NCBI RefSeq assembly: GCF_964204645.1
Contig: NC_134032.1
Span: 64,501-128,500, forward strand
Source: Tubulanus polymorphus
Lineage: Eukaryota > Nemertea > Palaeonemertea > Tubulaniformes > Tubulanidae
DNA: 64,000 nt
Direction of reading: 5' to 3'
Every line of letters starts with the position of its first letter. The stretch's first letter is position 1. Both the position numbers and the translations under genes were made by a program. Positions 14,763 to 64,000 of this stretch are shown piece after piece. Below the pieces are notes generated by a model that made no database searches, was not told the DNA's origin, and saw only the letters and a list, made by a program, of their open reading frames with translations.

Positions 14763-16457
14763 CTGTTTTGGAATCCGCTCGGTCCGGCAACGGCGCTTCC
14801 CGATAAACTACCGTTCAAACTGGAGCCAGCAATCGCTCTGTTACTGGCCGATTAGCGATCGCTCTCATCGCGGATTATCCCGACTCGGTCGATGTGGCTT
14901 CCGCTAGCGCTAAGACTGCCAGTCATAGCCATGGACATCTCACCGATACTAGGTCCGATACTGGGGTTTGCTACCCGGTCACTGGTCGTTTCTATACTGT
15001 GAGAATCAGCTACAACAAATATAAACATTCACTCATACTAGTACTGAACTAACTTAAATGACGTCATAGGGGGATTTATATAGCAGCCACACCAGACAAC
15101 GTGGCTTTATCAGTTAATCCCCCTATGACATCATCAAATTATCCCATATGAATCCTAGAAAGACAGCTGATTCCGGACCCTGCACCATATGAAAAGTATG
15201 GTTCAAGTACTTACGGGCGTAAGGCCCCGATGGGCCACTTCCTTCGTTCTGTTCGAACTCAAATCGAACTCCGCCCGGAGTCAGTCGTCGATACGCCGCA
15301 AACCGCTGCGACACAGCGATATCGGTACCACGCCGTAAACATACGCCAATAATATCGGTACACCGATACCAACGGCTAAACTAGCGACAACTGGCGCTAC
15401 GATAACAGACGCAGTTACACCACCGGCTATTACCATATTCCTCTTGTGCTGTGGTAGGTGACCGTAACGTGTATGTAACTGAAACACAAGATAAACACAT
15501 GAGAAATAGCATTTTTCATAGTAAAAATCTCGCGCAGGGTGGATTTAGGTTCCAATTTCTGTTTCTGACTAGCGCCATCAAGCGAGTAATTTCAGAACTT
15601 GAATTTGTCGATCTCCTGTATTTCACCGATAAGCCTTATCATATGTCCTTGTCATTAACGTTAAATGACAGTAACCACTTGATACAGTTTATGCGCAGTG
15701 TTTAGAACTAGGATTTTGACAAATAAAATCAATAAGGATTTATTACTTCTAAGTGTTGGTTATTCAACGTCACTCTGTGAATTCAATTCGAATACAGTCT
15801 ATATTCAATCCCAGTTTTTGGCTATATTCAATTATTGAAAAACTGGGATTGGGATTGACTGGAATTGACTTTGTATTGAGTTTAACAGTTGTGTGGGTTT
15901 AATTTCAAAATGAAAGGACATTTCAAAGGACATAATAATATCTGTAATGAGGCATTCAATGAATGAACACTTTGAATCCCAGTTCATCTGTTTGGGTTAA
16001 ATTCCTTTAGTTCAACAATTTCATCAAATTGAAAAACTGTAGTCAGAAAGCTGACCTACCACACATATTAAACTATCATTTTATGTCTCACGTGGTCACC
16101 CTGTGTGATAGGCTTCACGTATAAAAGACTTTCAGTTATGTATCCATGCGTATATGTTCTCGGCATTCAGATCAAAAACTACCTTTTTGGGCACGAGGCC
16201 CTTGTGACTCGTGTGGAAATATAATAATGATCACTAAATTGAGATTCTCACAGACAGACGGCAGATGGATTCCTAATATTAGTCGATAATTTACCTCGCG
16301 TCCGACCCAGACAGGAATCCCTATGATCATCGCGGGAACTGCGATTCCAGCAACGAGTCCGATACCGACCGGAGCGCCAACTAACGTGACAAGTTGCCAC
16401 AATATCTTCTTCTTTCGGCTCCATGGCTTTTTACCCCAGAAAGTGCAGCCAGACGGA
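14763..16457 (-). pseudogene. RNF19/Dorfin-like 3' exon fragment, copy 3
   Basis: Exon A (16,457-16,295) is intact and reads [18 protein letters not shown], matching the family better than copy 1 at the WG position; its last codon is GAG instead of AAG. Exon B (15,478-15,215) has an extra 2-nt loss near 15,300, so its frame fails even earlier ([10 protein letters not shown] then stop). Exon C (15,009-14,763) carries the shared TAA. Splice sites are preserved throughout. No catalytic RBR exon is present between exon A and the next block. Confidence 0.88.
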
Positions 16458-17949
16458 CTGAAAATCAACATAATCGACTAAATTATTACTCAATTTCTAA
16501 GGACTTATAAACCTTTATCATCGATTAAAGGCCGAGCTCGGGTTTACAAGGAAGGACCATAAATATCAATGGATTTATTCTATCACTTGCAACCATTTGA
16601 TTCAGAGCTCTGACAACTAGAGAATTGCCATGTGTGCAGGGGCCAGTTGCATAGTCATGGCTTAGACTTAAGACTAGTCCAAGACCAACTTAGTTCTATA
16701 GCTAATCTAACAACTTAAGACCAGTCCCAAGATTTAAGACCACCATTATAACATCATTAGAGCAATTCACAAAAATCATATCAAATATTCGATATAAATA
16801 AGAGTAACTAAACAAACCTGATCTAAACATCATCTTCTTTTGAGTAGAATAAACAAAACTCTAGCGTTACGCCTACATCTGAAATAATACAAAACACAGA
16901 AAATCATTATTTCTTCATCAGATAAAAAATGAAAACAGATTCAACAAGATTCAAAATGCTTTTAGTGTCAACAATTTTCAGTTACAATTTTTTTTTATTA
17001 GTTCAGACTTAGAGCAGGGAACACTATATGAATTTATTCCCACACCGTCTGAAATTACAGATTTCACAATGAAATTTGCAGCGTGTTCGTTGCTCAGCAG
17101 CAGGTGAATCGCAACATTCAAACATGTTTGATATTTCCACAGTAAATTGAGCCGCAATCTTTGACAAGCTTTCAAATCATGATAGCATCAATGATTTGAG
17201 AACGGCGCTGAAAACCTACTTGGATTTAGGACTTATGTTGAAATGGTTTGAAGACATTCTGTCGCTTCTGCGTTGAAAGAGAAGCTTCTAAATATTTCAA
17301 GTGAAAATAGCGATTGATTCGTCCGCCATCATTCTTAAATGGGACATACTCTACTTGGGAGGGCTAGTTCTGTAGTCCGCGCAGATCGAGGTCAACTAGG
17401 ACTCAGCGGCAAGAGCGCTCCGGGCACCAACTAAAGAGTTCACGGTAGTGCCCGCGGTAGACTTAACATGCCGCTCCGAATTGATAGTTGCGGGAAATAA
17501 TACCACGAAATTAGAAATTTGTAGCGATTTCCGTGCAATAGTTGAACAGATGAATTTCCTACTAAAATCCTGCAACAAATTGGTATCAATCTGAACGGGA
17601 TAAATACGTCCAGACACAAACAACGTCCGATTGACTGGGTATTAAGCGGGACTCGACCCTTCCCGGTTGGAGTAAATATCTAACAGGTGGTGCTCCGGTA
17701 GATTTTGTGAAACAGCTGATGACATTTTCATGATCTTTAGACGAGTTTGATCGCCGTTATACCGTCGTGGAATGGCACCTATTGTGAAAACTGATTAGGT
17801 GTGAAGTGATGCAATGATATTCAGTTGAAGTCAAACGACGAGAAGGGCTCCGAGACTGATGTGGACTTTACGAGAGGAATAAACTATTTTTTAGAAGGTA
17901 TCAAGATGGATCTGGCACAGAGCCAAAGCCGGCAAACTGACTTATGAAT

Positions 17950-24638: not shown

Positions 24639-26420
24639 CTGTTTTGGAATCCGCTCGGTCCGGCAACGGCGCTCCCCGATAAACTACCGTTCAAACTGGA
24701 GCCAGCAATCGCTCTGTTACTGGCCGATTAGCGATCGCTCTCATCGCGGATTATCCCGACTCGGTCGATGTGGCTTCCGCTAGCGCTAAGACTGCCAGTC
24801 ATAGCCATAGACATCTCACCGATACTAGGTCCGATACTGGGGTTCGCTACCCGGTGACTGGTCGTTTCTATACTGTGAGAATCAGCTACAACAAATATAA
24901 ACATTCACTCATACTAGTACTGAACTAACTTAAATGACGTCATAGGGGGATTTATATAGCAGCCACACCAGACAACATGGCTTTATCAGTTAATCCCCCT
25001 ATGACATCATCAAATTATCTTTCTCTTTATGGCTAGTCTATACAAAATGTAGAAAAGTTGGCCACCTCCAATAAATCCCCCCTTTGACATCATCAAATTA
25101 TCCCTTCAGATTCCTAGAAAGACAGCTGATTCCGGACCCTGCGCTATATGAAAAGTATGGTTTAAGTACTTACGGGCGTAAGGCCCCGATGGGCCACTTC
25201 CTTCGTTCTCTTCGAACTCAAATCGAACTCCGCCCGGAGTCAGTCGTCGATACGCCGCAACCACCGCTGCGACACAGCGATATCGGTACCACGCCGTAAA
25301 CATACGCCAATAATATCGGTACACCGATACCAACGGCTAAACTAGCGACAACTGGCGCTACGATAACAGACGCAGTTACACCACCGGCTATTACCATATT
25401 CCTCTTGTGCTGTGGTAGGTGACCGTAACGTGTATGTAACTGAAACACAAGATAAACACATGAGAAATAGCATTTTTCATGGTAAAATTTGCGATAAAAA
25501 TCTCGCGTGTGGTGGATTTAGGTTCCAATTTCTGTTTCTGACTAGCGCCATCAAGCGAGTAATTTCAGAACTTGAATTTGTCGATATCCTGTATTTCACC
25601 CGATAAGCCTTATCATATGTCCTTGTCATTACGGTTAAATCACAGTAACCACTTGATCTGGTTTATGCGCAGTGTTTAGAACTAGGATTTTGACAAATCA
25701 AATCAATAAGGATTTATTACTTCTAAGTGTTGGTTATTCAACGTCACCCTGTGAATTCAATTCGAATACAGTCTATATTCAATCCCAGTTTTTGGCTATA
25801 TTCAATTATTGAAAAACTGGGATTGACTGGAATTGACTTTGTATTGAGTTTAACAGTTGTGTGGGTTTAATTTCAACATGAAGGACTTTTCAAAGGTCAT
25901 AATGATATCTGTAATGAGGCATTCAATTGAATGAACACTTTGAATCCCAGTTCATCTGTTTGGTTTAAATTCCTTTAGTTCAACAATTTCCTCAAATTGA
26001 CAAACTGTAGTCGGAAAGCTGACCTACCACACATATTAAGCTATCATTTTATGTCTCACGTGGTCACCCTGTGTGGTAGGCCTCACGTATAAAAGACTTT
26101 CAGTTATGTGTCCATGCGTATATGTTCTCGGAATTCAGACCAAAAATGACCTTTTGGGCACGAGGCCCTTGTGACTCGTGTGGAAATATAATAATGATCA
26201 CTAAATTGAGATTCTCACAGACAGACGGCAGATGGATTCCTAATATTAGTCGATAATTTACCTTGCGTCCGACCCAGACGGGAATCCCTATGATCATCGC
26301 GGGAACTGCGATTCCAGCAACGAGTCCGATACCGACCGGAGCGCCAACTAACGTGCCGAGTTGCCACAATATCTTCTTTCGGTTCCATGGCTTTTACCCC
26401 AGAAAGTGCAGCCAGACGGA
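24639..26420 (-). pseudogene. RNF19/Dorfin-like 3' exon fragment, copy 4
   Basis: Exon A (26,420-26,262) has lost 1 nt in the KKPW region and 3 nt in the lysine run, so it is frame-shifted before its membrane segment, although the segment itself ([17 protein letters not shown]) is still readable in one frame. Its acceptor is TTTTTAG. Exon B (25,439-25,174) and exon C (24,885-24,639) carry the same shift and the same TAA as the other copies. One 82-bp unit sits in intron B-C. The truncation after exon C (CTGGAGATTG) is shared with copy 2. Confidence 0.87.
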
Positions 26421-34877: not shown

Positions 34878-36533
34878 TGTTTGATATCCGCTATTTACCA
34901 CTAGAAATCGCGTGGTAGACACAACTAGAACACAACTAACGACAGTTTGATATCCGCTATTTACCACTAGAAATCGCGTGGTAGACACAACTAGAACACA
35001 ACTAACGACAGTTTGATATCCGCTATTTACCACTAGAAATCGCGTGTCAGACACAACTAGAACACAACTAACGACAGTTTGATATCCGCTATTTACCACT
35101 AGAAATCGCGTGGTAGACACAACTAGAACACAACTAACGACAGTTTGATATCCGCTATTTACCACTAGAAATCGCGTGTCAGACACAACTAGAACACAAT
35201 TAACGACAGTTTGATATCCGCTATTTACCACTAGAAATCGCGTGTCAGACACAACTAGAACACAACTAACGACAGTTTGATATCCGCTATTTACCACTAG
35301 AAATCGCGTGGTAGACACAACTAGAACACAACTAACGACAGTTTGATATCCGCTATTTACCACTAGAAATCGCGTGTCAGACACAACTAGAACACAACTA
35401 ACGACAGTTTGATATCCGCTATTTACCACTAGAAATCGCGTGTCAGACACAACTAGAACACAACTAACGACAGTTTGATATCCGCTATTTACCACTAGAA
35501 ATCGCGTGGTAGACACAACTAGAACACAACTAACGACAGTTTGATATCCGCTATTTACCACTAGAAATCGCGTGTCAGACACAACTAGAACACAACTAAC
35601 GACAGTTTGATATCCGCTATTTACCACTAGAAATCGCGTGGTAGACACAACTAGAACACAACTAACGACAGTTTGATATCCGCTATTTACCACTAGAAAT
35701 CGCGTGGTAGACACAACTAGAACACAACTAACGACAGTTTGATATCCGCTATTTACCACTAGAAATCGCGTGTCAGACACAACTAGAACACAACTAACGA
35801 CAGTTTGATATCCGCTATTTACCACTAGAAATCGCGTGGTAGACACAACTAGAACACAACTAACGACAGTTTGATATCCGCTATTTACCACTAGAAATCG
35901 CGTGTCAGACACAACTAGAACACAACTAACGACAGTTTGATATCCGCTATTTACCACTAGAAATCGCGTGTCAGACACAACTAGAACACAACTAACGACA
36001 GTTTGATATCCGCTATTTACCACTAGAAATCGCGTGGTAGACACAACTAGAACACAACTAACGACAGTTTGATATCCGCTATTTACCACTAGAAATCGCG
36101 TGGTAGACACAACTAGAACACAACTAACGACAGTTTGATATCCGCTATTTACCACTAGAAATCGCGTGTCAGACACAACTAGAACACAACTAACGACAGT
36201 TTGATATCCGCTATTTACCACTAGAAATCGCGTGTCAGACACAACTAGAACACAACTAACGACAGTTTGATATCCGCTATTTACCACTAGAAATCGCGTG
36301 GTAGACACAACTAGAACACAACTAACGACAGTTTGATATCCGCTATTTACCACTAGAAATCGCGTGGTAGACACAACTAGAACACAACTAACGACAGTTT
36401 GATATCCGCTATTTACCACTAGAAATCGCGTGGTAGACACAACTAGAACACAACTAACGACAGTTTGATATCCGCTATTTACCACTAGAAATCGCGTGTC
36501 AGACACAACTAGAACACAACTAACGACAGTTTG
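34878..36533. repeat. 66-bp satellite, 25 units, two unit types
   Basis: The unit contains GATATCCGCTATTTACCACT, then AGAAATCGCGTG, then either GTAGAC (type T) or TCAGAC (type D). Order along the plus strand: TTDTDDTDDTDTTDTDDTTDDTTTD (13 T, 12 D). Other differences are almost absent (one ACACAATTAAC variant in unit 5). Because 66 is divisible by 3 and lacks stops, the minus strand gives a 571-codon open frame, which I regard as a by-product. In type T, TACCAC and GTGGTA within the unit can pair; type D breaks that pairing. Confidence 0.97.
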
Positions 36534-36723: not shown

Positions 36724-36819
36724 TAAACGTTACAATGGCGGAGAGTAATCCAGGAATAAATGCAGAAAATGTTCGCGATGACGAGGAGCAAACCGTCGAT
36801 AGACCTGCTGAGAATCTCG
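36724..36819 (+). CDS. RHIM-NLR short exon 1 (RHIM core missing)
   Basis: The exon follows a TTTTTCAG acceptor and ends at CTCG|GTAATT. It enters with two bases of a split codon and leaves with one (phase 1 on both sides). An in-frame ATG at 36,735 begins MAESNPGINAENV; the exon ends DRPAENL like its paralogues. The Gly-x-x-Asn segment seen in exons 2-4 is replaced by an acidic RDDEEQTV stretch. Spliced straight to the NACHT exon it would give 946 residues. It could supply the start codon without the amyloid core, a possible non-assembling isoform. Transcript use is inferred. Confidence 0.65.
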
Positions 36820-37102
36820 GTAATTATAGATTTTAACCATCGGAGTTCAGTTCAGTACAGAATGATGTGACTTGAGTCTAAATGTGATCTCGTATATAAA
36901 TCCGGTGTAAAGTTTTGAGGCGAAAGTAATATATTGTCTTTAAAGATTCTGAGTACCAAAATGGACCCACCAACCCGATTGGTTTAAATCTTTGACTAAT
37001 ACTGTCAGGGTCTGGTTCTATAATCGGTATTTTGAATTATGGTCTCTTATCAGATCTGGTGACACAGTTTGTTTATCAGTCTCGAGTAGGAATAAAAATA
37101 GA

Positions 37103-37124
37103 TTAACAGTATAAATACTGTTAA
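37103..37124. repeat. Palindrome between RHIM exons
   Basis: TTAACAGTAT and its exact complement are separated by AA. The same palindrome recurs at 38,765-38,786 and 60,460-60,481, always in the intron segment that follows a short exon, so it travels with the exon module. Confidence 0.75.
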
Positions 37125-37454
37125 CAGTAAAATAAGACCGCCGGGTGAAAGTTACCGTGATCAGATACTATCACGTTTCAATCCTAACCCTATAATTCAA
37201 AATGGGCCTGGGCCCAATTTGGCCCGACCAAAAACGTCGGACCAGGTGCGGGTCAACTGGTTCCGGTAGTGACTCACTTCGCTTTGTTTAGTATCAAGTT
37301 AGAGGTTTGCGTGTGAATGCAATCTCTAAGGCCAATTTGACTCGAACCTGATCCGTACCAATTTTGCCGCCCGGGTCAAATCGTCTCCCCGTGATCGCGG
37401 CTATAGTCGTTAGTATCGAGTTGCACAATATCAGATATAATTGATATTAGGTGG

Positions 37455-37539
37455 AGGATTGCTACATGTAGGAGTGAACTCATCATGGGTTAGTTGAGTT
37501 CAGACATAGGATTCAATGACTCTCCAATGTAGCAATCCT
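37455..37539. repeat. Short inverted repeat, MITE-like
   Basis: AGGATTGCTACAT (37,455-37,467) and its exact complement (37,527-37,539) bracket 59 bp. The same structure lies at about 58,675-58,757 in the second locus. It is probably a small relic element copied with the locus. Confidence 0.55.
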
Positions 37540-37862
37540 GTAATGAAATGAAATGTAAGTTAATCAAATTTCTGAACTCATTAATACCGATTTTAATTGT
37601 TTTAAGCCCGATGAAAAATATATGATGTCATTATTTTGAAGGCTTAATGTTTTATTAACATTGTCAGTAGTTCTCATAAATTTTCCTCGGCCATTTTTTT
37701 CCTACATTCCATTATCCTTTATCAGTAGCGGAAACAAAGAAAACTTCAGTCTGAATATGAGTAGAGGCTGATTGTGTAAATACTGGACACAACAATTAGG
37801 TCAGGAAAAATGTGCTGCACTTGTTGAGATAAAATGACTGAATTCTAAATCCTGTTTTTCAG

Positions 37863-38006
37863 TTCGTGGTACTATGGCACAGAGTAATCCAGGAATAAAT
37901 GCAGACAATTCTAAAATGCGTAAAAGCGGTGACAATAATACGATGACAGTGACTCAAATTATCCCTGCAGTTACTCAAGCCAGCAACAGACCTGCTGAGA
38001 ATCTCG
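37863..38006 (+). CDS. RHIM-NLR short exon 2 (RHIM-like)
   Basis: 144 bp, phase 1 to phase 1, acceptor TTTTTCAG, donor CTCG|GTAATT. The ATG at 37,874 opens MAQSNPGINADNS, followed by KSGDNNTMTV, VTQASN and RPAENL. The GDNNTM part fits the Gly-x-x-Asn-x-Met half of the RHIM core, but the two residues before the glycine (Lys-Ser) do not fit the usual hydrophobic-Gln-hydrophobic lead. It may be a weakened or diverged amyloid motif. It can join the NACHT exon or any other short exon in frame. Confidence 0.68.
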
Positions 38007-38344
38007 GTAATTATAGATTTTAACCATCAAAGTTCAGTTCAGTACAGAATGAGTATATGGCTAGCGAGACTGGTAATATTTGTGGCTAGAATGTGTTTCA
38101 TGTAGTTTATGTCTTATTATTAACAGGCGAATACTGCTCACAAATTCATACATTTCATTATTGTTATTATTGAGATCTCTTGGGTTGCTACACTTGTATT
38201 ATAGTAAGCTTTTATCATTGTTATCTGGTCTTCTGCATGTGATATGTACTAATTTACAATTTGGCCAACCAGCATATTTCTTTCAGGAAAACTGTGCTGC
38301 ACTTGTTGAGATAAAATGACTGAATTCTAAATTCTGTTTTTCAG

Positions 38345-38482
38345 TAAACGTTACTATGGCGGCGAGTAATCCAGGAATAAATGCAGATAATTCTAATTTA
38401 AGTATAAGCGGTGACAATAATACAGTGAATCAAAATATCCACGTAGTTACTCAAGCCAGCAACAGACCTGCTGAGAATCTCG
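38345..38482 (+). CDS. RHIM-NLR short exon 3 (RHIM-like)
   Basis: 138 bp, phase 1 to phase 1. The ATG at 38,356 opens MAASNPGINADNSN, then LSISGDNNTVNQNI, VVTQASN and RPAENL. Gly-Asp-Asn-Asn-Thr-Val matches the second half of the RHIM core; Ser-Ile-Ser replaces the hydrophobic-Gln-hydrophobic lead. The copy in the second locus (60,039) reads SIIGDNNTV, closer to the consensus. Joined directly to the NACHT exon this gives a 960-residue protein. Confidence 0.7.
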
Positions 38483-38986
38483 GTAATTATAGATTTTAAC
38501 CATCAGAGTTCAGTTCAGTACAGAATGATGTGACTTGAGTCTAAATGTGATCTCGTATATAAATCCGGTGTAAAGTTTTGAGGCGAAAGTAATATATTGT
38601 CTTTAAAGATTCTGAGTACCAAAATGGACCCACCAACCTGATTGTTTTAAATCTTTGACTAATACTGTCAGGGTCTGGTTCTATAATCGGTATTTTGAAT
38701 TATGGTCTCTTATCACATCTGGTGACACAGTTTGTTTATCAGTCTCGAGTAGGAATAAAAACAGATTAACAGTATAAATACTGTTAACAGTAAAATAAGA
38801 CCGCCGGGTGAAAGTTACCGTGATCAGATACTATCACGTTTCAATCCTAACCCTATAATTCAAAATGGGCCTGGGCCCAATTTGGCCCGACCAAAAACGT
38901 CGGACCAGGTGCGGGTCAACTGGTTCCGGTAGTGAGTCACTTCGCTTTGTTTAGTATCAAGTGAGAGGTTTGCGTGTGAAGGCCAG

Positions 38987-39121
38987 TTTGTGGTGCTTTG
39001 GTACAGAGTAATGTAAATAAAGTGAATGTAAATGAATCAATGGTTCAAATGGGTGGCAATAATACGATGAATTTTTACCTTGGAGATACACAAACTATCG
39101 ACAGACCTGCTGAGAATCTCG
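38987..39121 (+). CDS. RHIM-NLR short exon 4 (clear RHIM motif)
   Basis: 135 bp, phase 1 to phase 1, acceptor AAGGCCAG, donor CTCG|GTAATT. Residues VQMGGNNTM (39,043-39,069) match the RHIM consensus [I/V]-Q-hydrophobic-G-x-x-N-x-[L/M], and NFYLGD follows. RHIMs form the amyloid cores by which RIPK1, RIPK3, TRIF and ZBP1 assemble. The only ATG is the codon immediately before VQMG, so a longer N-terminus needs exons 1-3 upstream. The acceptor has a weaker pyrimidine tract than those of exons 1-3. From its own Met, splicing to the NACHT exon gives 945 residues. The RHIM call is by motif; amyloid assembly is inference. Confidence 0.75.
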
Positions 39122-39527
39122 GTAATTATAGATTTCTACCATCAGAACTCGTGCTTGAGTCCAAATGTGATCCTAAATCATAAGACGGGTCCGAAGTCTT
39201 TGACCATGTCTCTAAAGATCGTTCTAAATCTTTAACTAAAATGATAGAAAATTATTTCAAGACATTCTATCCACCAGGTGGCGTACGATTGTTTAAGCCC
39301 AGTTGGGACTTTAGTCCCAGTTGGCTGTTGATTTCACTTTTTGCCCGTTCGTCCGTAGATGGAATCCAGTTATTTCGGATTGTCCCTGTTCACGATCAAG
39401 ATGGCTGACAGGCAGCCAGTTCATACATATTTATTGCTATTGGAAGAACTTGTGACTGACACCTACTCAAAATCTAGTAAACTTACGATCAGTTTTTATA
39501 GCCACATTTCAGGCATGAATTCCTCGA

Positions 39528-39836
39528 TTGTTAAACATTAAAAATTATATCTCAGCAACAAATTTAGTTTATGGACGACAAAATAAAATTGATAATATTA
39601 CTGTAATTAATCAAATATTATTAAATGAAACATATTTAATTACTGAACTAATAGATACTTTCCATAATGGCTCCAGAAATCCTAAAATATTCAATACAGT
39701 TTTAGATTATAAAGGTAATTTAGATGAAAAAATAATGAATATTCTTGAAACTCCTTTTAAAGAAAGAAATGATGATTTAATACTTTCTAAAGGTTACAAT
39801 GATTTGATTAACTTGAGAATTGAAAAACGAAAATAA
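39528..39836 (+). other. AT-rich open frame in NLR intron, copy 1
   Basis: A 102-codon frame with no ATG at its start (it opens after a TGA and first reads LLNIKNYISATNLV). It is rich in Asn, Ile, Lys and Leu, with strongly A/T-ending codons, unlike the NACHT exon 3 kb away. The copy at 61,222 encodes the same residues throughout. I recognise no family. It could be a fragment of an inserted, foreign or mobile gene, or chance in AT-rich DNA. Confidence 0.3.
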
Positions 39837-42707
39837 CATAATTTCAATCTTAATAATAAACAGATTACTTATAATGAAAATTCATCAAATATTGGAATTG
39901 GAATGACTTTAATCAATATCCTTTATCTTTTATAAGTATATATATCTCCACAGCGCACATCAGCATAAGAAAAAGTTAAAATTTGGTCGATCGGACTCAA
40001 TATGGCCGTCCTGAGACCTTTTTGTACCTATTTTTGGTCTAAATTCCGAGACCTGTAGCTTCCTAATTGTTTGGTATTTTCTGTTGAAATTTGTGATGGG
40101 TATTTTTTTGGAAAGGGGATTTCCTGACACATCAGACAGGTTTTTTTCATCATTCAATTTTAACGTAATTTCTTGCACACATATGAAAAGAGGTGTTTTG
40201 GGGGAAAATGTCATTTTCACATAGTGGGTAAGTGATTTTAACTTAGTCTTGATATTTGGTCGTTATCAGCATTGTCATAGGACATGGAATTTCGGTCTTT
40301 TGTTCAAGCCACCAGGAGAATTAAATATTGAATTGAATAAAATTTTCCATTTATATTGGTAACTCTGCATATTTTGTAAACGCGATCAATGAATTGATTT
40401 AAAAGTTGATTTGCTTAAATCAACTCGTTGATATCAGGACCTATAAGTTTTTTTCAGTGAGCGCTCAAATAAAAGCTGTTTTCGAACAAGCTGGAACAAA
40501 TATTTTCTTTTAGCTAATTTTTCTCAATCGACCGGAAATTTTGAGACCAAATCAGCGAGCATAGAAATTTTAACGACGCCAGTCGCAGCAAGTCGCACAT
40601 GTTCTACTTACTGCGACGCGATCGTCGCAATAAACCTACGGCTACGCCCTCTCGTGACTGGGAGATGCGCGATTTTATCCAGTAATACTGGGATTCGAAC
40701 CCACAATAGTTGTGAGATGCGTTTTGAAATAATTTTTTTTGAAGGATTCGTAGAATTTCTTATCGAGAATTTAATCTCTTTCATTTGTTTTCAAGCTGCT
40801 TTGACCATAAAGACCAGTTATTTTAGCTCTAAGTCAATGACTATTACTAAATAGCTGTGTTGAAACCCAATTTTCCCTAATAGGCCAGAATTCGAAACTT
40901 TTTATCTTTGCGTGGTTTGGTTCCAATTTTAGTTACCACGTGACAATCGCAAGTACGATCCTATCTTTATATCAGGAAATTTCACAATTTTACCGGCCCC
41001 TGCTTTATTGAAATCAATAACTATGGAAATAAGGGTACTTAGCCATTTGAAAAAAATGGCAAATAAAGATATATAGGCAGTTCTAGTAAAACAAGGACAG
41101 ACTTCGGGGTTGGGAATCGGTAGTCCAGACCCTGCCTTCAAAATTGAACAATGAAAATGTAGATTAAGATTTGTAAGAATTATGAACTTTTGAATGAGAT
41201 GAGCAAAAATTCAAGTTGAATTATCGGGAAGAGGATATGAATGTTTATAACTTCACCAGCGCGCATTGTTGCTTTAAATTTATGAATGAGTGATATCATA
41301 GAAAAGTTAATTATCAGCTGAGTTCATCGATATTTTTACCTTATTTCTATCTTAATCCAATCCAGAGATATGAACGAAATAAGAAAATTAAACTGAGGAA
41401 AAAATTGGGACAAGAATTCAACAATGCGGACCCGGTGGGTACCCAAAAATGGCGCCTGGCAACTGTAAAAAGACTTATCGCGTCGCAACCGACTTACACC
41501 CGGCTTAAAATATCTCAAACTGATTTCATTTTTGTGGTCGGGTCGCGTAGCAACGCCGACCACGATGTTTTAGTGGTTCGACTTCATTTTCCCATTTTTT
41601 CTGTTATTTGACACAAGATACGTAGCTTTGTAATTAGTTCAGGGAAATTTGTTGCACTTTCCTGGGTTTATTGAAAGAACGAATGAATTTATTTCTAAAA
41701 GAAGAAATCGAAGGAATTCTGTAAAATAATAATTATTTTCCCGCCTGATGTCATATCGGGATATCCCTTGTCTTTTGCGCACCGATATGGCTGATCGACC
41801 TTTCTAAAAAAGTAATTCATACTCGTTGAAGTGTGCCGCTACTTATTGTATTGTATATCCCAGGCCTAGAAACAATTTCTTGATGAAATCTAAATTAACA
41901 AAGTATATTTGGTTTACCTGCGCAAGGACTTAAAACCAGCACTTCTTATGCGCGTAAGCAGCTAACATTTGTGTTTAGAAAACCATAGTTCATCGTGTAT
42001 CACGTGACTAATACAGTTTTCCGATCCTCATTTCAAAAGTTAAGAACTAAATGAAATGAATTGTTGTCATCTGATTAACTCAAACTGAAATTCTGAGAAA
42101 GATGAGAAAGATTAATAAACATCTTGTCCTGTGCTGAAAATTGCATGTTGATGCGCGGCGTAGTTTGCAGTATTTACTGCGGAGCTGTGATGATAGCGCC
42201 CTTGTTTTAGTAACACGTGAAGTTCACCAAAATCAATGAAGCCGTTTATCTTTAGATTAAGTATAATTTTAAAAAAAGGTGAAAAAGCCGACTTTTTTAA
42301 AGGTGACTTTTTGGAAATGTTTTCCTCGTGTAGATTGAAAATAAAGGATTTTTCCACTCGTGTAGATGGGACCTTGAATGTCTCTGATCGAACTTGTTGC
42401 TAATCCGACCCCACAGAAAGATTCTTTCTGGTGCATATTTTGTCACCGCAATCAATTGCAAAGTTTTAGCTCATGACATGATGTATGATTGTGGTGAGTT
42501 TCAGGTTCGTTGGTTTTTGTTTAAGGTCACTAGGGGGCGTTGAATAGCAGAATAACTCATTAGTTCCTTGGTACCTAGGCATATTTTGTAACTGCGGTCA
42601 ATTGTACAATTTAAGCTCATGACATTTTCTATGATTCTATGATTTTCAGGCAAAATCAGCCGCCATAGAAATTCTAAAAAAATCTCAAACTGGTTTTATT
42701 TTTACAG

Positions 42708-45463
42708 ATGTTGATCAAGTTCAGAAGAACCTGAAAGAAACGTATAAACGAATGATCGATGATGAAAATTACAAAGAGGTTTCGTGGAGCGATGAATTCG
42801 TCAATTTCAACGACTTCTTCGCCCAAGAACACGCGAAAATTCGAGCCCAAAAACGAAACCCGAAGAAAAATGAAGGAAGTGAGGAGCAGCCAGTTATTTT
42901 ACCCGATCATTTCGAGAAGCTTTTCACTTATAAAGAGAGTGATGTGAAACCCGTGTGCCTCGTAGGTGAACCCGGTATGGGTAAAACAACTCAGATTGTT
43001 AATCAAGTGTTGTCATGGGAGCGATCACCGTTTCTGAAAAGATTTCCTATGTTATTCTATATACCGTTAAATGAACTGCCCGCTGATAACGCGTGTATTT
43101 ATAAGTACATTTACAAAAATCTTTTGAGTCGAGAAATCAGAAAGGTTCTGCCGATTGATAGTTTTAAAGAATTCGTTGAGGAAAATGCAGAAAAATCGAT
43201 ATTTTTTCTAGACGGCTTCGACGAGTTGAAAAACGATAAAGCGAAAATAGACATCGTACACGTGACCAATAAATTACCGAAAGCGCATATCGTCATAACA
43301 ACACGTGAGTCCGGGGGCAGCATGATCGTCACTGATCCCAAATTCACCGTTGTATCGATATCCGGCTTCAAACAGGAAGAAGTCATCGATATTCTGGAGA
43401 GAAAATTCCCCGAGTGCAATCCATATCAGCTATTCTACAGGCTTAAAGCCGCAGCGCCACCTATATTTAAAAGTATCTACTACAACCCGCTGATACTACA
43501 TATGTTTTGTTTTCTGTATATGGACGAGGAAGAAATTACGATACCATCAAAACTCACCGATATCTACATCGATTTGACATGTTTTCTAATCAGTAAACGC
43601 GAGGGCCTCGAGTTGTCGAAGGAATGTTTTTTCCGCAATATCGGAAATTCTGAAGCGCTTAAAGAAATTTGTCAAGTCGCGTATGAGACGCTCATCGAGC
43701 ATCAAAACAGCTTCACCGAAAGTCGTCTTGAACTCGACGAATCGAAAAGGACGGCTTTGACGTGCAAAGAGATGTCGCCGCGACGGAAATCAGACCGCTC
43801 CGTCCAGCTACGGTTCATACACAAATCTGTGCACGAATTTCTGGCGGCGGTACACTCGGTCGTGCAATTCAACAACAGTAATGAAATACCCTGGAAAACA
43901 CCCTGGAATAAATGCGCGTTTGAACAACTACCGGACGAACTTGTGAAATATGGTGAATTATACCCGAGATTCATGGCAGGGCTGCTGTATCGTTACAAGT
44001 TTAACCGCGGCCTCGGTGAACTTTTCAAGACTTTAATAGATGAACATTTAAAAGCAGTCACAATAATGGATGAGTACGAGCCCTTGGTTACGGTTACTAG
44101 GGAATCGGCAGATATGCCGCTCATCCCCGATTACGAACGCTACATCGAACTCCGATCCGAAAGAACTGTTTTATCTCATCAGTTATCTGATCAGTTGTTA
44201 ATCTGCATGGATGAAGCCGACTGGCCGGACGACGCCATTAGTGAAATAGTTCCCTACATGCAGAAAATGTTGTCCGTATCTGCATATGGCAGATCGTGGA
44301 TAAACATGCTCGCAAAAATACTCGAACACAAACAATGTCAGATCGAGCTAGTTTACATACTGGGTATTCACGAACTGGAACCCGACGAATACCGCGTATT
44401 AGAAACAGCCATAGCGAGTAACACTAGTCTTCACGGTATGATAATAGATGCAGACTGGTCAGCAAAACCCGATCAGTACTTGACTATGTGTAAGAAGAGC
44501 AACAGTATAAATTGGTTTGTGCGGCTAGGGGGAATCCACACTGGTGAATGTTACAAGAAACTCAATAATGAATGGATTATTACAAGTCACGTGATTGAAT
44601 CTGAAGCTGACGCGCGGTTGATCAGTGGTGATACTAACACACACAATACAGTGGAGAGTCTGATTATTGATGTTAGTGCGGAAAGTTTAGGTAATATTTT
44701 AGTCAATATTCACAAATCGTATCCACCCATAAAACATCTATATCTCAGATCTCTGCTACGGCAGGAATATCAGCTCGATAGAAATACAATCAGAGGGCTG
44801 ATAAACATCATTCCGAGTTTGAAAACCTTATGTCTTGGTGGAGTAATATTCGATAAAGATTTGATCGGTTCGGAGGAATTGAATGATTTTAACAACACAT
44901 TAAAATCGTCAGACATCGAAACAATTCGGCTCGGACGGCAAGGACTGGACGAACTAACGACAGATGAATGTGCAGCAATGAGTGATAGTGTCGGTTCAAT
45001 GCAGAAACTAAAACGTCTTGGCATTTACGGATTTAATTTACCAATACACCGCGTTCTAGGTCACCTGCCGCGGCTGACTGTATTAGAAATAAAGTTGCAG
45101 TCAGAAGCTGATGTTGACGCACTTGTTCGGTATCTATCAACAGATGCGGTAAATCAGCTGATACAAGTCCGTATTGATAGCTGTCTCGATAGACCGGAAC
45201 AGAACAATCGTATCTTTAAACAACTAAAACACGTCTCATCAATTCGTTATTTAAAGTTCTACAGTTCACTCCGAGCGCGGATTAATACACAGCACGATAT
45301 CGATTTATTCGTCAAATCAATCGTCGAATTAATCAATAATCTTCCGCATCTTTCTGACCTGTGTATCGACTGCAGGAGCACCGACCGCGATACGACGAGA
45401 GATTACATCATATCAGAACTTAAAAAACTCAATAAAAGAGTGAGAGTAGGAATAGAGATATAG
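42708..45463 (+). CDS. NACHT-LRR receptor, large terminal exon of RHIM-NLR gene
   Basis: The exon opens after a TTTTTACAG acceptor, and its first two bases complete the codon left by any of the short exons (CTC G|AT). Numbering from Met at 42,752 (903 residues): a helical linker (1-60); NACHT ATPase with Walker A GEPGMGKTT (72-80), FYIPLNEL (102-109), Walker B FFLDGFDEL (151-159) and sensor IVITTRE (180-186); a helical region with NPLILHMFC and FIHKSVHEFLAAV (354-366); then degenerate leucine-rich strands from about 660 (LKTLCLGG, IETIRLG, LKRLGIYGF, LTVLEIKL, IRYLKFY, LSDLCID). NACHT proteins act as ATP-driven oligomerising switches in the cytosol; the LRR end senses ligand. There is no internal stop or frameshift. 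An AATAAA follows 3 nt after the stop codon. Confidence 0.95.
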
Positions 45464-54741: not shown

Positions 54742-55541
54742 TTGGGCCGATGCTGTGAGAAGAAAATGTTCTGCTCCAACACTCAAGACCGCGACCAACA
54801 CCTTCAACAACTGAAAAATGCGTTCCACCAACTCCAGTACAACCCTGAAATCATCGACCAACAAATCACTCGCGCTACTCACATACCCAGAGAAACAACA
54901 CTCCAATCCGCAACGTCTAGAGAAACTGAGCGAATCCCCATCGCAGTCACCTACAGTCCGCGCCTGCGCAGAATCCAACGAATCATATCAGATCTCCAAC
55001 CCATAATCGAATCATCTACGCGACATACTACCACTGAGACCAGTCATCGCGTACCGCAAACCAGCTAACCTTAGAAAACTCCTCATCAGCAGCAAACTAT
55101 CCACCGTAGAAGACTCAGATAACAAATACACGAGCCCCTGCAATAAATCTAGATGTCAACTCTTCCCTCTCATCAACTCATCACCGACCGTCACCGCAAC
55201 CAACAACCAACAACTCAAAGTCACTGAACCCTGCACATGCGACTCCACCAACGTTGTTTAGCCCTGGAACCATCTACATCGGAGAAACTGGACAAACATT
55301 ACGTCAACGCTTAAATGGTCACAAATTTGATATCAGACACAAGAAAATGGATAAACCTATCGGCGAACATTTCAATCTTCCGAACAACACCATCAGTAAC
55401 CTTAAAGTGACCGCGTTACATAAAATGAACACTTCTAATAAACAATCGCGCAAATCATGGAACAAAAACTTATTCAACGCGGTGATCCTGTTAATCTTGG
55501 CCTCAATCGCGATCTAGGATTCATGTCCCGATACAGAACCT
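54742..55541 (+). mobile_element. Penelope-like element 3' fragment with GIY-YIG domain
   Basis: The frame from 54,742 reads RATHIPRETTLQ and PIAVTYSPRLRRI, the connector typical of Penelope RT C-termini. After a shift near 55,020 it continues as LRPVIAYRKPANLRKLLIS and PCTCDSTNVV. After a second shift near 55,255 it reads GTIYIGETGQTLRQRLNGHK, the GIY-YIG endonuclease, ending at a stop by 55,517. The reverse transcriptase domain is absent upstream, so this is a 5'-truncated, frame-shifted relic. Penelope elements use the GIY-YIG domain for target cutting. Confidence 0.85.
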
Positions 55542-57425: not shown

Positions 57426-59075
57426 CATTGATCCTGAGAAAGAGACAGATCGATGATGAAATAAGGGATTCCCTGGACTTTTTTTGCTTGGAGTAAGGGT
57501 ACCAAACACGGTGGGGATTCCCTTAGATATTTGGCTCGGATGGCATCCCTGTACTGGGATACCCCTCCTTTCTAAAGGTTTGATTATTTCAAAAGTTAGG
57601 TTGGGTATGTGGGGCGAAAACCACTTCAATGCGTAGCTAAGATGCTGGCCTATGAGCCATAAGCAGGATTTCCCCTGAATTTACGCGCTTGTATATGAAC
57701 TAAACTCTCGAATTTCTTGTTTTTATTATAGGATATAGAAGATTTTGGAATAGTGGTCTGAGCTCGTCTGATAGTGAATAAAAACCAAAAGATATCAATT
57801 TTGCAAGGGCCGGCTACTGTACGTGCGTTTGGACTTGTTCCTGTCGACTAATCCATCACACTCGATAGTCAAAGTAGGATTTTTTGTGCAGAAGGGCCTG
57901 ACCAGAAACAGAATGTTTTTTTTGGCCTAAATATCTTTAATTTACTGTAGAAATATTCTAGTCAATTTAGTGAATGCGGAATTGTGTTTGAACAGAACGC
58001 GATTCTGATTAGGGGGGAGGGGGGCGTCGGTTCATAACACAGAATGAGACTAGTTTTATATCTAGAGTTTATCAGGTTAAAACCTTACATCCTTTTATAT
58101 CTAAACAACAAAAAAGTGCAAAAAGTAGAACTCTTAAACTTTTGCATCACAAGGGCGAAATTGATAATGTATGAGTTTACATAATCGTTGGTGGTAAACT
58201 TAGATCTCAGCATTTCAGAGTTAATGATGATTTTAACGAGATTTTCTGACATCAGTGATAGATATCTTTATCGTGTAATATATAATACATGTAGTTCATT
58301 TACTCGCAATCATTATTTTAAACGATTCCCAGCCCTCTTATTACGTCACTACTAAAATAAGAGTGAAAGTTACCGTGATCAGATACTATCACGTTTCAAT
58401 CCTAACCCTATAATTCAAAATGGACCTGGGCCCAATTTGACCAAAAACGTCGGACCAGGCGCGGGTCAACTGGTTCCGGTAGTGACTCACTTCGCTTTGT
58501 TTAGTATCAAGTGAGAGGTTTGCGTCTGAATGCAATCTCTAAGGCCAATTTGACTCGGACCTGATCCGTACCAATTTTGCAGCCCGGGTCAAATCGTCTC
58601 CCCGTGATCGCGGCTATAGTCGTTAGTATCGAGTTGCACAATATCAGATATAATTGATATTAGGTGGAGGATTGCTACATGTAGGAGTGAACTCATCATG
58701 GGTTAGTTGAGTTCAGACATAGGATTCAATGACTCTCCAATGTAGCAATCCTGTAATGAAATGAAATGTAAGTTAATCAAATTTCTGATCTCATTAATAC
58801 CGATTTTAATTGTTTTAAGCCCCATGAAAAATATATGATGTCATTAATTTGAAGGCTTAATGTTTTATTAACATTGTCAGTAGTTCTCATAAATTTTCCT
58901 CGGCCATTTTTTTCCTACATTCCATTATCCTTTATCAGTAGCGGAAACAAAGAAAACTTCAGTCTGAATATGAGTAGAGGCTGATTGTGTAAATACTGGA
59001 CAAAACAGTTAGGTCAGGAAAAATGTGCTGCACTTGTTGAGATAAAATGACTGAATTCTAAATCCTGTTTTTCAG

Positions 59076-59171
59076 TTTGTGGTGCTTTGGTACAGAGTAA
59101 TCCAGGAATGAATGCAGAAAATGTTCGCGATGACGAGGAGCAAACCGTCGATAGACCTGCTGAGAATCTCG
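59076..59171 (+). CDS. Second-locus short exon 1 (chimeric)
   Basis: 96 bp, phase 1 to phase 1. The first 28 bp (CGALVQSN) match exon 4 of the first locus, while the remainder (NPGMNAENVRDDEEQTV, then DRPAENL) matches exon 1. Like exon 1 it lacks the Gly-x-x-Asn core. An internal Met lies at NPGM. Recombination or gene conversion between paralogous exons explains it best. Confidence 0.65.
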
Positions 59172-59264
59172 GTAATTATTGAGATCAGAGTTCAGTTCAG
59201 TACAGAATGATGTGACTCGAGTCAAAATGTGATCTCGTATATGAAACCGGTGTAAAGTTTTGAG

Positions 59265-59885
59265 ACGTGCGACTGAGTCACACGTTTATGCCTGACTTTG
59301 ACAAAGCAGCTTCCCTTCCTGCGTAATGAATGTCAATGAAATCAACTTTTAGAATCATTTATTTTTTACATTAAAATCCATGAAAGAAAAAACTGATCCT
59401 AATTACATTCATTCCAATGTAAGACTGTCGAGTATGCGCCTCTTCCTCCGGCAGGTTAAAACAGTATTCAGTGATTTAGAAGATACAAGTCTTCTCGTTG
59501 CAACATCTAACATAAGTCTGTCTTTTGCTGACACAGTTTTTTTTCTACGTAAAATCCTTGAAAGAAACCGATGCTGGTTACATTTCGATGTCAGATTGTC
59601 GAGTGTGCGCCTCTTTAAAACTAATCCAGCAAATTAAGACAGTATTCTTCAGGCATTTTTAGAAAATAAAGTCAGTGATTTGCGGATGGCGACCTGTTGT
59701 GGCTTGTGATTTGATATCTCAGTCGATGACCGACCCTGGCGCGTTATCTGAATGCGTTTTTCACACGATAAAAACCTAATAAACAATTTCAACTGTGTTT
59801 TGTAACGTCGCCGGAAATCTCTAAGGAGGTCAAATTATCTAATGTTCCAAATGCGAACTTGTGATGGAGATGTTGAAGTTTAGTC
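59265..59885. other. Unique insert in second NLR locus
   Basis: Contains a diverged direct repeat of about 180 bp: TTACATTCATTCCAATGTAAG and GTCGAGTATGCGCCTCTTCC recur as TTACATTTCGATGTCAG and GTCGAGTGTGCGCCTCTTTA. An 85-codon open frame runs through both copies, but I recognise no domain and no splice sites support it. Confidence 0.45.
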
Positions 59886-60038
59886 TATTATCCTTTATCA
59901 GTAGCGGAAACAAAGAAAATTTCAGTCTGAATATGAGTAGAGGCTGATTGTGTAAATACTGGACAAAACAATTAGGTCAGGAAAAATGTGCTGCACTTGT
60001 TGAGATAAAATGACTGAATTCTAAATTCTGTTTTTCAG

Positions 60039-60176
60039 TAAACGTTACTATGGCGGCGAGTAATCCAGGAATAAATGCAGACAATTCTAATTTAAGTATA
60101 ATCGGTGACAATAATACAGTGAATCAAAATATCCACGCAGTTACTCAAGCCAGCACCAGACCTGCTGAGAATCTCG
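60039..60176 (+). CDS. Second-locus short exon 2 (RHIM-like)
   Basis: The counterpart of first-locus exon 3, 138 bp, phase 1 to phase 1, with ATG at 60,050. It reads SIIGDNNTVNQNI, then AVTQAST and RPAENL. The Ile before the glycine makes it a better RHIM-type core (I-G-x-x-N-x-V) than exon 3. Confidence 0.68.
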
Positions 60177-60680
60177 GTAATTATAGATTTTAACCATCAG
60201 AGTTCAGTTCAGTACAGAATGATGTGACTTGAGTCTAAATGTGATCTCGTATATAAATCCGGTGTAAAGTTTTGAGGCGAAAGTAATATATTGTCTTTAA
60301 AGATTCTGAGTACCAAAATGGACCCACCAACCCGATTGGTTTAAATCTTTGACTAATACTGTCAGGGTCTGGTTCTATAATCGGTATTTTGAATTATGGT
60401 CTCTTATCACATCTGGTGACACAGTTTGTTTATCAGTCTCGAGTAGGAATAAAAACAGATTAACAGTATAAATACTGTTAACAGTAAAATAAGACCGCCG
60501 GGTGAAAGTTACCGTGATCAGATACTATCACGTTTCAATCCTAACCCTATAATTCAAAATGGGCCTGGGCCCAATTTGGCCCGACCAAAAACGTCGGACC
60601 AGGTGCGGGTCAACTGGTTCCGGTAGTGACTCACTTCGCTTTGTTTAGTATCAAGTGAGAGGTTTGCGTGTGAAGGCCAG

Positions 60681-60815
60681 TTTGTGGTGCTTTGGTACAG
60701 AGTAATGTAAATAAAGTGAATGTAAATGAATCAATGGTTCAAATGGGTGGCAATAATACGATGAATTTTTACCTTGGAGATACACAAACTATCGACAGAC
60801 CTGCTGAGAATCTCG
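60681..60815 (+). CDS. Second-locus short exon 3 (clear RHIM motif)
   Basis: The counterpart of first-locus exon 4, with the same residues and the same VQMGGNNTM core (60,737-60,763). The acceptor AAGGCCAG and donor CTCG|GTAATT are kept. It is expected to splice to a NACHT exon beyond the window. Confidence 0.72.
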
Positions 60816-61221
60816 GTAATTATAGATTTCTACCATCAGAACTCGTGCTTGAGTCCAAATGTGATCCTAAATCATAAGACGGGTCCGAAGTCTTTGACCA
60901 TGTCTCTAAAGATCGTTCTAAATCTTTAACTAAAATGATAGAAAATTATTTCAAGACATTCTATCCACCAGGTGGCGTATGATTGTTTAAGCCCAGTTGG
61001 GACTTTAGTCCCAGTTGGCTGTTGATTTCACTTTTTGCCCGTTCGTCCGTAGATGGAATCCAGTTATTTCGGATTGTCCCTGTTCACGATCAAGATGGCT
61101 GACAGGCAGCCAGTTCATACATATTTATTGCTATTGGAAGAACTTGTGACTGACACCTACTCAAAATCTAGTAAACTTACGATCAGTTTTTATAGCCACA
61201 TTTCAGGCATGAATTCCTCGA

Positions 61222-61530
61222 TTGTTAAACATTAAAAATTATATCTCAGCAACAAATTTAGTTTATGGACGACAAAATAAAATTGATAATATTACTGTAA
61301 TTAATCAAATATTATTAAATGAAACATATTTAATTACTGAACTAATAGATACTTTCCATAATGGCTCCAGAAATCCTAAAATATTCAATACAGTTTTAGA
61401 TTATAAAGGTAATTTAGATGAAAAAATAATGAATATTCTTGAAACTCCTTTTAAAGAAAGAAATGATGATTTAATACTTTCTAAAGGTTACAATGATTTG
61501 ATTAACTTGAGAATTGAAAAACGAAAATAA
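61222..61530 (+). other. AT-rich open frame in NLR intron, copy 2
   Basis: Matches 39,528-39,836 residue for residue. Neighbouring intron sequence between the two loci shows scattered substitutions, but over so short a span absence of change proves little. Confidence 0.3.
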
Positions 61531-64000
61531 CATAATTTCAATCTTAATAATAAACAGATTACTTATAATGAAAATTCATCAAATATTGGAATTGGAATGA
61601 CTTTAATCAATATCCTTTATCTTTTATAAGTATATATATCTCCACAGCGCACATCAGCATAAGAAAAAGTTAAAATTTGGTCGATCGGACTCAATATGGC
61701 CGTCCTGAGACCTTTTTGTACCTATTTTTGGTCTAAATTCCGAGACCTGTAGCTTCCTAATTGTTTGGTATTTTCTGTTGAAATTTGTGATGGGTATTTT
61801 TTTGGAAAGGGGATTTCCTGACACATCAGACAGGTTTTTTTCATCATTCAATTTTAACGTAATTTCTTGCACACAGATGAAAAGAGGTGTTTTTGGGGAA
61901 AATGTCATTTTCACATAGTGGGTTAGTGATTTTAACTTAGTCTTGATATTTGGTCGTTATCAGCATTGTCATAGGACATGGAATTTCGGTCTTTTGTTCA
62001 ACCCACCAGGAGAATTAAATATTGAATTGAATACAATTTTCCATTTATATTGGTAACTCTGCATATTTTGTAAACGCGATCAATGAATTGATTTAAAAGT
62101 TGATTTGCTTAGATCAACTCGTTGATATCAGGACCTATAAGTTTTTTTCAGTGAGCGCTCAAATAAAAGCTGTTTTCGAACAAGCTGTAACAAATATTTT
62201 CTTTTAGCTAATTTTTCTCAATCGACCGGAAATTTGGAGACCAAATCAGCGACCATAGAAATTTTAACGACGCCAGTCGCAGCAAGTCGCACATGTTCTA
62301 CTTACTGCGACGCGATCGTCGCAATAGACCTACGGCTACGCGCTCTAGTGACTGGGAGATGCGCGATTTGATCCAGTAATACTGGGATTCGAACCCACAA
62401 TAGTTGTGAGATGTGTTTTGAAATAATTTTTTTTGAAGGATTCGTAGAATTTCTTATCATTTGTTTTCAAGCTGCTTTGACCAAAAAGACCAGTTATTTT
62501 AGCTCTAAGTCAATGACTATTACTAAATAGCTGTGTTGAAACCCAATTTTCCCTAATAGGCCAGAAATGCGACACTTTTTATCTTTGCGTGGTTTGGTTC
62601 CGATTTTAGTTACCACGTGACAATCGCAAGTACGATCGTTTCTTTATATCAGGAAATTTCACAATTTTACCGGCCCCTGCTTTATTGAAATCAAAGTTTT
62701 CAGTAACTATGGAAATAAGGGCACTTAGTCATTTGAAAAAAATGGCAAATAAAGATATATAGGTAGTTCTAGTAAAACAAGGACAGACTTCGGGGTTGGG
62801 GATCGGTAGTCCAGACCCTGCCTTCAAAATTGAACAATGAAAATGTAGATTAAGATTTGTAAGAATTATGAACTTTTGAATGAGATGAGCAAAAATTCAA
62901 GTTGAATTATCGGGAAGAGGATATGAATGTTTATAACTTCACCAGCGCGCATTGTTGCTTTAAATTTATGAATGAGTGATATCATAGAAAAGTTAATTAT
63001 CAGCTGAGTTCATCGATATTTTTACCTTATTTCTATTTTAATCCAATCCAGAGATATGAACGAAATAAGAAAATTAAACTGGGGAAAAAATTGGGACAAG
63101 AATTCAACAATGCGGACCCGGTGGGTACCCAAAAATAGCGCCTGGCAACTGTAAAAAGACTTATCGCGTCGCAACCGACTTACACCCGGCTTAAAATATC
63201 TCAAACTGATTTCATTTTTGTGGTCGGGTCGCGTAGCAACGCCGACCACGATGTTTTAGTGGTTCGACTTCATTTTCCCATTTTTTCTGTTATTTGACAC
63301 AAGATACGTAGCTTTGTAATTAGTTCAGGGAAATTTGTTGCACTTTCCTGGGTTTATTGAAAGAACGAATGAATTTATTTCTAAAAGAAGAAATCGAAGG
63401 AATTCTGTAAAATAATAATTATTTTCCCGCCTGATGTCATATCGGGATATCCCTTGACTTTTGCGCACCGATATGGCTGATCGGCCTTTCTAAAAAAAAG
63501 TAATTCATACTCGTTGAAGTGTGCCGCTACTTATTGTATTGTATATCCCAGGCCTAGAAACATTTTCTTGGTGAAATCTAAATTAACAAAGTATATTTGG
63601 TTTACCTGCGCTAAGACTTAAAACCGGCACTTCTTATGCGCGTAAGCAGCGAAGATTTGTGTTCAGAAAACCGGTTCATCGTGTATCACGTGACTAATAC
63701 AGTTTTCCAATCCTCATTTCAAAAGTTAAGAACTAAATGAAATGAATTGTTGTCATCCGATTTACTCAAACTGAAATTCACAGAAAGATGAGAAAGATTA
63801 ATAAACATCTTGTCCTGTGCTGAAAATTGCATGTTGATGCGCGGCGTAGTTTGCAGTATTTACTGCGGAGCTGTGATGATATCGCCCTCGTTTTAGTAAC
63901 ACGTGAAGCTCACCAAAATCAATGAAGCCGTTTATCTTTAGATTAAGTATAAATTTGTATAAAAAGGTGAAAAATCTGACTTTTTTAAAGGTGACTTTTG

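Follow-up and report, generated by a model that had tools for sequence, protein, structure and literature searches.

The window analysed here is a stretch of 64,000 nucleotides (nt) from the nemertean Tubulanus polymorphus (C8:64501-128500; assembly of 267.8 Mb; the only species covered), and the subject of the analysis is LOC141909594, an NLR gene on its forward strand in which short cassette exons precede a NACHT and leucine-rich repeat (LRR) exon, one of them encoding a core like that of the RIP homotypic interaction motif (RHIM). The cassette exons are E1 (36724..36819; 96 nt; ATG at 36735; reading MAESNPGINAEN...RPAENL), E2 (37863..38006; 144 nt), E3 (38345..38482; 138 nt) and E4 (38987..39121; 135 nt), and the NACHT-LRR exon extends over 42708..45463 with its stop at 45461-45463. 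Only E4, with the core VQMGGNNTM at 39043-39069, has the RHIM tetrad; E2 and E3 retain G..N alone, the tetrad being absent from their cores (RKSGDNNTM and SISGDNNTV), and no RHIM-like core is present in E1.

All four cassette exons are multiples of 3 nt in length, are in phase 1 at both ends, end in CCTGCTGAGAATCTCG|GT and give the same reading frame on joining position 42708, so that any exon can join any other and the array is one of chained cassettes rather than of alternative 5' exons. An alternative-first-exon model was ruled out by the NCBI model proteins P0001, P0003, P0004 and P0006, all of which chain cassettes, with P0004 and P0006 carrying different chains. P0001 (LOC141909594 isoform X2, 1039 amino acids (aa)) consists of E1 (its first 28 aa), E2 (second block), E4 (third block) and the NACHT exon, with E3 skipped, and the junctions VRGTM and VCGAL in its protein sequence agree exactly with the prediction. 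The last base of E4 followed by 42708 onward reads D-V-D-Q..., and the proposal of the initial annotation that E4 encodes VQMGGNNTM and that its frame continues into a complete NACHT-LRR exon was confirmed by the sequence and by the P0001 model; the gene anatomy and the joins of this NCBI isoform are established. The first array is repeated within 58353-64000 by the forward-strand cassettes E1' (59076..59171), E3' (60039..60176; core SIIGDNNTV) and E4' (60681..60815; VQMGGNNTM at 60737) of the next gene, LOC141909593, and 59977-63999 is 97.7% identical to the segment running from shortly upstream of E3 into the intron after E4. Its protein P0003 joins E1' (first block) and E3' (second block), at 59076-60176, to a NACHT' exon past the window end.

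A search of NCBI proteins with the NACHT exon listed 22 proteins, namely P0001 at 100% identity over the whole length, 12 further T. polymorphus proteins (P0002-P0013) that share 58-88% identity with the exon across 72-100% of its length, and nine remote ones at 23-26% identity. The exon contains a NACHT domain (57.3 bits; Pfam cut-off 26.7), and Pfam LRR_14 was sub-threshold (18.4 bits; cut-off 40); the C-terminal LRRs were recognised in the predicted structure of P0001, where strands and helices alternate from residue 631 (AlphaFold; block pLDDT 59-91). In this model, which used 13 sequences (mean pLDDT 53.9, pTM 0.51), the LRR part was good and the NACHT part poor, and residues 1-120 had no secondary structure (block pLDDT 22-29), as expected of a free RHIM region. 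NLRP14, NLRP7 and NLRC4 were among the top PDB rows of a Foldseek search, along with chains of the mouse oocyte lattice, and ribonuclease inhibitor was also matched, with query-normalised TM-scores of 0.13-0.30 because the domain arrangement of P0001 was not predicted. Pfam gave no PYD, CARD or other death-fold match in the P0001 N-terminus and recognised no effector domain there besides RHIM. The paralogous NLRs P0007, P0010 and P0008 have other N-termini before a NACHT-body start resembling D/N-V-x-Q: one type of front is Ig-like (Ig_2 at 16.1 bits in P0007; cut-off 27) with a membrane-spanning part seen by eye, and the other is about 305 aa long, helix-rich by eye and gave Pfam matches no higher than sub-threshold. 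Front ends seem to be exchangeable on the NLR body.

The RHIM core of RIPK1, RIPK3, TRIF and ZBP1 follows the pattern [VI]Q[VI]G..N.[ML]. The tetrad was taken as given in passages of PMC12119088. A relaxed pattern, [VI]Q[VIML]G..N.[MLIV], occurred twice in the six frames of the window, in E4 and in its duplicate at 60737, compared with a mean of 0.07 in 100 Markov-simulated windows. One E4-type cassette as genome query gave 10 matches, and a composite cassette query, which held a VQIG core, gave 41 at an expectation value (E) <=10, internal repeats and weak ones included. E4-type copies at C56:25387, C6:17608479 and C6:18094782 read KMVQIGDNNTMN, and their core, VQIGDNNTM, conforms to the strict pattern [VI]Q[VI]G followed by ..N.[ML]. 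All three exceeded the curated cut-off of the Pfam RHIM profile (PF12721; 20 bits), with 22.3 bits at C6:17608530 and C6:18094833 (E 0.0485 each) and 21.9 bits at C56:25435 (E 0.0638). They account for three of the five above-cut-off matches among the nine found genome-wide at E<=10; of 14 control genomes one gave a match, below the cut-off. The C6 pair, being near duplicates, was counted as one lineage, which leaves two distinct E4-type relatives at three places. Two hand-joined pieces of cassette and NACHT start reached 21.2 bits (hmmscan; E 2.1e-4 over all Pfam). Pfam membership of the paralogue cassettes is established, and through them the cassette family does include predicted RHIMs.

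Profile comparison (hhalign) pointed the same way. An alignment of 19 cassettes matched a profile of three vertebrate RHIM sequences on the core (E 1.3e-4, probability 53%), with none of 400 column shuffles as good, and the eight VQ-type cassettes gave E 1.2e-5 and 81% (0/400), a result that is circular because these were picked by motif. The 10 tetrad-less S/R-type cassettes gave no profile signal (22/400 shuffles as good), and one cassette (DQIS) belongs to neither type. The suggestion that the short exons in general carry RHIM motifs was not upheld, as E1 and the tetrad-less cassettes attest, though E2 singly scored 5.4 bits against the three-sequence profile with 7 of 10000 shuffles as high. 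On that profile the P0012 N-terminus scored 7.0 bits (2/10000), the P0013 N-terminus 1.1 bits (383/10000) and E3 0.0 bits (725/10000). Partial cores were found in other lineages, namely VQIGDKCTM in P0012 and repeated VQIGDK with a final AQIGATNTI in P0013, of which P0009 has a shorter form. P0023 scored 10.5 bits with PF12721 and its cassette piece alone 12.8, both below the cut-off. Pfam Effector-associated domain 10 also matched the C56:25387 cassette piece, at 11.4 bits against a cut-off of 24.1. Substitution counts in the cassette core were not used, as the changes were too few and the flank counts were spoiled by an indel.

Sixteen stretches of about 10 kb adjoining cassettes were taken for NACHT matching, and seven of them had a long NACHT-family match. 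The NACHT frame is single and open in L047 (963 aa), L049 (961 aa), L052 (999 aa) and L055 (932 aa) and broken in L041, L053 and L054; L044-L046 have short matches to the NACHT start only. L054 belongs to the C6:17524467 cassette of P0023, whose gene therefore looks broken. The VQIGDNNTM copies of C6 correspond to L047 and L049, with intact NACHT frames 2.3-2.5 kb downstream and no protein for either in the NCBI search; in these strongest copies the cassette-to-NACHT join is inferred from order and phase. The idea of an animal NLR family with its own RHIM thus gained support beyond E4, since two of the three places with above-cut-off cassettes precede intact NACHT frames. Proteins sharing the cassettes were sought by exact 5-residue words in common, the only likeness that these searches detect. 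Six of 123 candidates of 571-1818 aa matched, all of this NLR family and P0001 included, and one of 8000 scored at about 162-515 aa, the partial NLR P0023. An effector fused to the same cassette was searched for in this way, and only NLR-family proteins were returned.

Candidate RHIM partners are present in the same genome. An exon at C7:3977744 reads IIHVNKCKNVQIGNNNFATVYMG and is RHIM-like (17.9 bits, below cut-off; 16.5 by hmmscan), and an exon matching Death at 48.8 bits, which ranks second among 34, lies 719 bp downstream on the same strand, an order of RHIM then death domain that is the C-terminal order of RIPK1. Ten cassettes were aligned with the C7 exon and tested by shuffling (40 comparisons in all, counts uncorrected). 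All five E4-type cassettes, E4 included, gave alignments of 26-29 columns that none of 2000 shuffles equalled; C9_5584269 (18/2000) and E2 (54/2000) were weaker, and C9_3605976 (194), E3 (1000) and E1 (1085) were not significant. Counts against human pieces were weaker than against C7 (E4 with RIPK3, 21/2000, and with RIPK1, 68; C56_25387 with RIPK3, 0, and with RIPK1, 48). The second candidate, at C3:26755833 on the minus strand (L057:820-2121), is a 434-aa frame with VQLGNSNTM (26.2 bits; 21.7 by hmmscan), in which the RHIM follows a predicted long helix; shuffle counts against it were 25/2000 for E4, 0 for E2 and 0 for C56_25387. For its first 184 aa the genome offered no other good match, the next having E 0.4. 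A TIR domain, suspected there by eye, is not claimed, as nothing was found in Pfam, PDB or PADLOC and the single-sequence model had a mean pLDDT of 38.5. Three other weak genome-wide PF12721 matches, on inspection, did not offer a complete core within a convincing exon.

We favour the reading, which we hold to be probable though well short of secure, that RHIM-tipped animal NLRs would seed homotypic RHIM assembly, with a disordered N-terminus of cassettes some of which are RHIMs (E4, and more strongly those of the paralogues). The LRRs would sense a ligand, upon which the NACHT domain would open and oligomerise, and the clustered RHIM cassettes would stack in register and template a RHIM amyloid with a RHIM-bearing partner. 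That partner would most likely be the RIPK1-like C7 gene with RHIM and death domain and/or the C3 RHIM protein, and the output could be of NF-kB type or cell death. Alternative inclusion of RHIM or degenerate cassettes may tune or switch this coupling, and the cassette mix may set its strength. Oligomerisation, amyloid, partner choice and output are all proposed on the model of RIPK1/RIPK3 and of the fungal pairs NWD2/HET-S and PNT1/HELLP (PMC7889193).

A number of observations weigh against this reading, beginning with the scores of E4 itself. The initial annotation had called the E4 core near-textbook; the motif is present, but the strict pattern failed at the third position of the tetrad, and E4 in the P0001 N-terminus obtained 7.6 bits with PF12721, placed exactly on SMVQMGGNNTMNF and below the 20-bit cut-off that its paralogues pass. 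The same profile matched neither the four isolated exons nor E4 with the NACHT start, found no RHIM in the N-termini of P0004, P0009, P0012 and P0013, and gave no RHIM match genome-wide at the default E<=0.001. The controls in the search with E4 and the NACHT start, human RIPK3 and RIPK1, scored 36.6 and 25.2 bits. Against the three-sequence profile E4 scored 5.1 bits, a value as high as which came from 65 of 10000 shuffles, and the best of 2801 short window frames was an unrelated one (SSGIQIP, minus strand from 27792; 7.9 bits); nothing in the PDB matched the sequence of E4 or of the P0013 N-terminus at E<=10. Taken alone, E4 would barely qualify as a RHIM. Eleven of the 19 aligned cassettes are without a VQ-type tetrad. 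These low values would fit a chance or vestigial likeness, in which a disordered tail bears a functionless VQ.G..NT. resemblance. Such an explanation is distinctly unlikely given that paralogue cassettes exceed the Pfam cut-off, that no shuffle in 400 equalled the profile comparison and that the match to the C7 RHIM exon is extended.

Expression of E4 raises a separate doubt. E4 has TTG at the site where E1, E2 and E3 carry ATG and thus holds no start codon, its acceptor, gaaggccag, looks weak and has no T-rich tract, unlike that of the C56:63449 copy, and E4' is skipped in P0003. P0005 begins at the final residue of a core resembling the C56:25387 cassette, so that this model is without RHIM. 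E4 might accordingly be a dying exon of LOC141909594 with a damaged acceptor, RHIM-less isoforms being the ones at work and sister genes keeping RHIM signalling; we regard this as unlikely, as the NCBI gene model of isoform X2 includes E4 with an exact junction. Further points on the same side come from the surroundings: the core pattern stands in E4 and E4' only, with none of the genome-wide PF12721 matches in the window and no adjoining effector with a matching motif seen; no kinase near C7:3.98 Mb was among the matches listed (135 of 480 candidates scored); and six of the 16 stretches next to cassettes (L042, L043, L048, L050, L051 and L056) had no NACHT match, some of them being second stretches of one place.

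The fifth above-cut-off match bears on another function of the cassettes. At C8:4552388 (22.2 bits with PF12721; 19.4 by hmmscan) a 231-aa frame ends in the RHIM core VQLGNGNTM. The surrounding C8:4551600-4559300 (L058, L059) has dense, long open frames on the same strand with no obvious introns and is perhaps an integrated element. The RHIM cassettes could be integrated decoys, baits that catch pathogen proteins binding host RHIMs while the output takes another route, and their standing in arrays on a sensor and the RHIM core of this possible element would suit such a role. We give this little credence, since Pfam recognised no other effector domain in the P0001 N-terminus and the stretch is a putative element.

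The proposed seeding of RHIM assembly by the NLRs also invites a question of origin. The C7 exon has the acceptor tttatttcag and the donor gtaagt and is by inspection in phase 1 at both ends, like the NLR cassettes. Together with the C7 alignments this makes capture of the exon from a RIPK1-like gene plausible; the reverse direction or common descent is also possible. A tentative scenario, which we put forward as possible but doubtful, is that phase-1 exon shuffling brought the RHIM exon of a RIPK1-like gene into nemertean NLRs, which then multiplied it into arrays from which splicing can select, giving RHIM, degenerate-RHIM or RHIM-free tips per locus and an animal amyloid NLR signalosome that might also serve as bait for pathogen RHIM proteins.

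Amyloid-tipped NLRs have been described in fungi and prokaryotes, and animal RHIMs on kinases, adaptors and arthropod PGRPs. Among the listed titles and abstract starts of open-licence papers no RHIM-bearing animal NLR was found, which does not imply absence from print. If true, RHIMs on a family of animal NLRs would connect these two groups and would provide a test of whether animals retained the fungal and bacterial design or reinvented it. RHIM-type sequences are here placed in a nemertean. An earlier survey that covered the transcriptome of Lineus ruber and the genome of Notospermus geniculatus detected no RHIM (PMC9835746); the NLR-RHIM fusion may be confined to one lineage, or the survey may have overlooked it, as default Pfam settings overlook E4.

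Other features of the window were recorded. A 66-bp minisatellite at 34879-36533 (about 25 copies, 97% match) ends about 190 bp before E1 and produces a 584-aa reverse-strand open frame. Two hydrophobic minus-strand frames each occur three times in the first 27 kb, one at 2358-2657, 7891-8190 and 25218-25517 and the other at 3250-3591, 16172-16477 and 26100-26393; they are perhaps a separate tandem array, and Pfam gave no family at E<=0.01 for the first copy of either frame. The frame at 55110-55517, with a weak GIY-YIG match (17.9 bits; cut-off 22.6), is perhaps a retroelement remnant.

Among known RHIMs, the paralogue core VQIGDNNTM resembles VQVGDNNYL of RIPK3. According to passages of PMC12119088, most single changes in the human RIPK3 tetrad lower NF-kB activation and two abolish it, with ZBP1-dependent death kept, and VQMG is not among the variants named there. 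Unlike the RHIMs of RIPK1, RIPK3, TRIF and ZBP1, the worm RHIM is N-terminal on a NACHT-LRR receptor and lies in exon-encoded arrays, with E4 below the cut-off. RIPK1 homologues of the zebra mussel and other spiralians are reported in the same passages (PMC12119088), and the C7 gene, the proposed partner, is like them in having a RHIM-like exon followed by a death domain, with no kinase among the matches listed. Compared with the vertebrate NLRs (NLRP, NLRC4), the NACHT-LRR body is alike, whereas Pfam matched neither PYD nor CARD nor any other death fold at the P0001 N-terminus. According to a 2021 review (PMC7889193), the short amyloid domains of mammalian signalling are not found in protein arrangements of the fungal and prokaryotic kind, and PP, BASS 3 and RHIM are described in PMC7889193 and PMC12261475 as related motifs. 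The worm system differs from the fungal and bacterial amyloid NLRs in being animal, in its NACHT-LRR body, in carrying the motif in chained exons and in having no adjacent effector with a matching motif seen, and its C-terminal repeats are LRRs where theirs are WD40 or TPR. What it would have in common with fungal NWD2/HET-S and PNT1/HELLP (PP motif) and with bacterial BASS-NLRs, as judged here from sequence, is a STAND receptor that bears a short motif of amyloid type at its N-terminal side.

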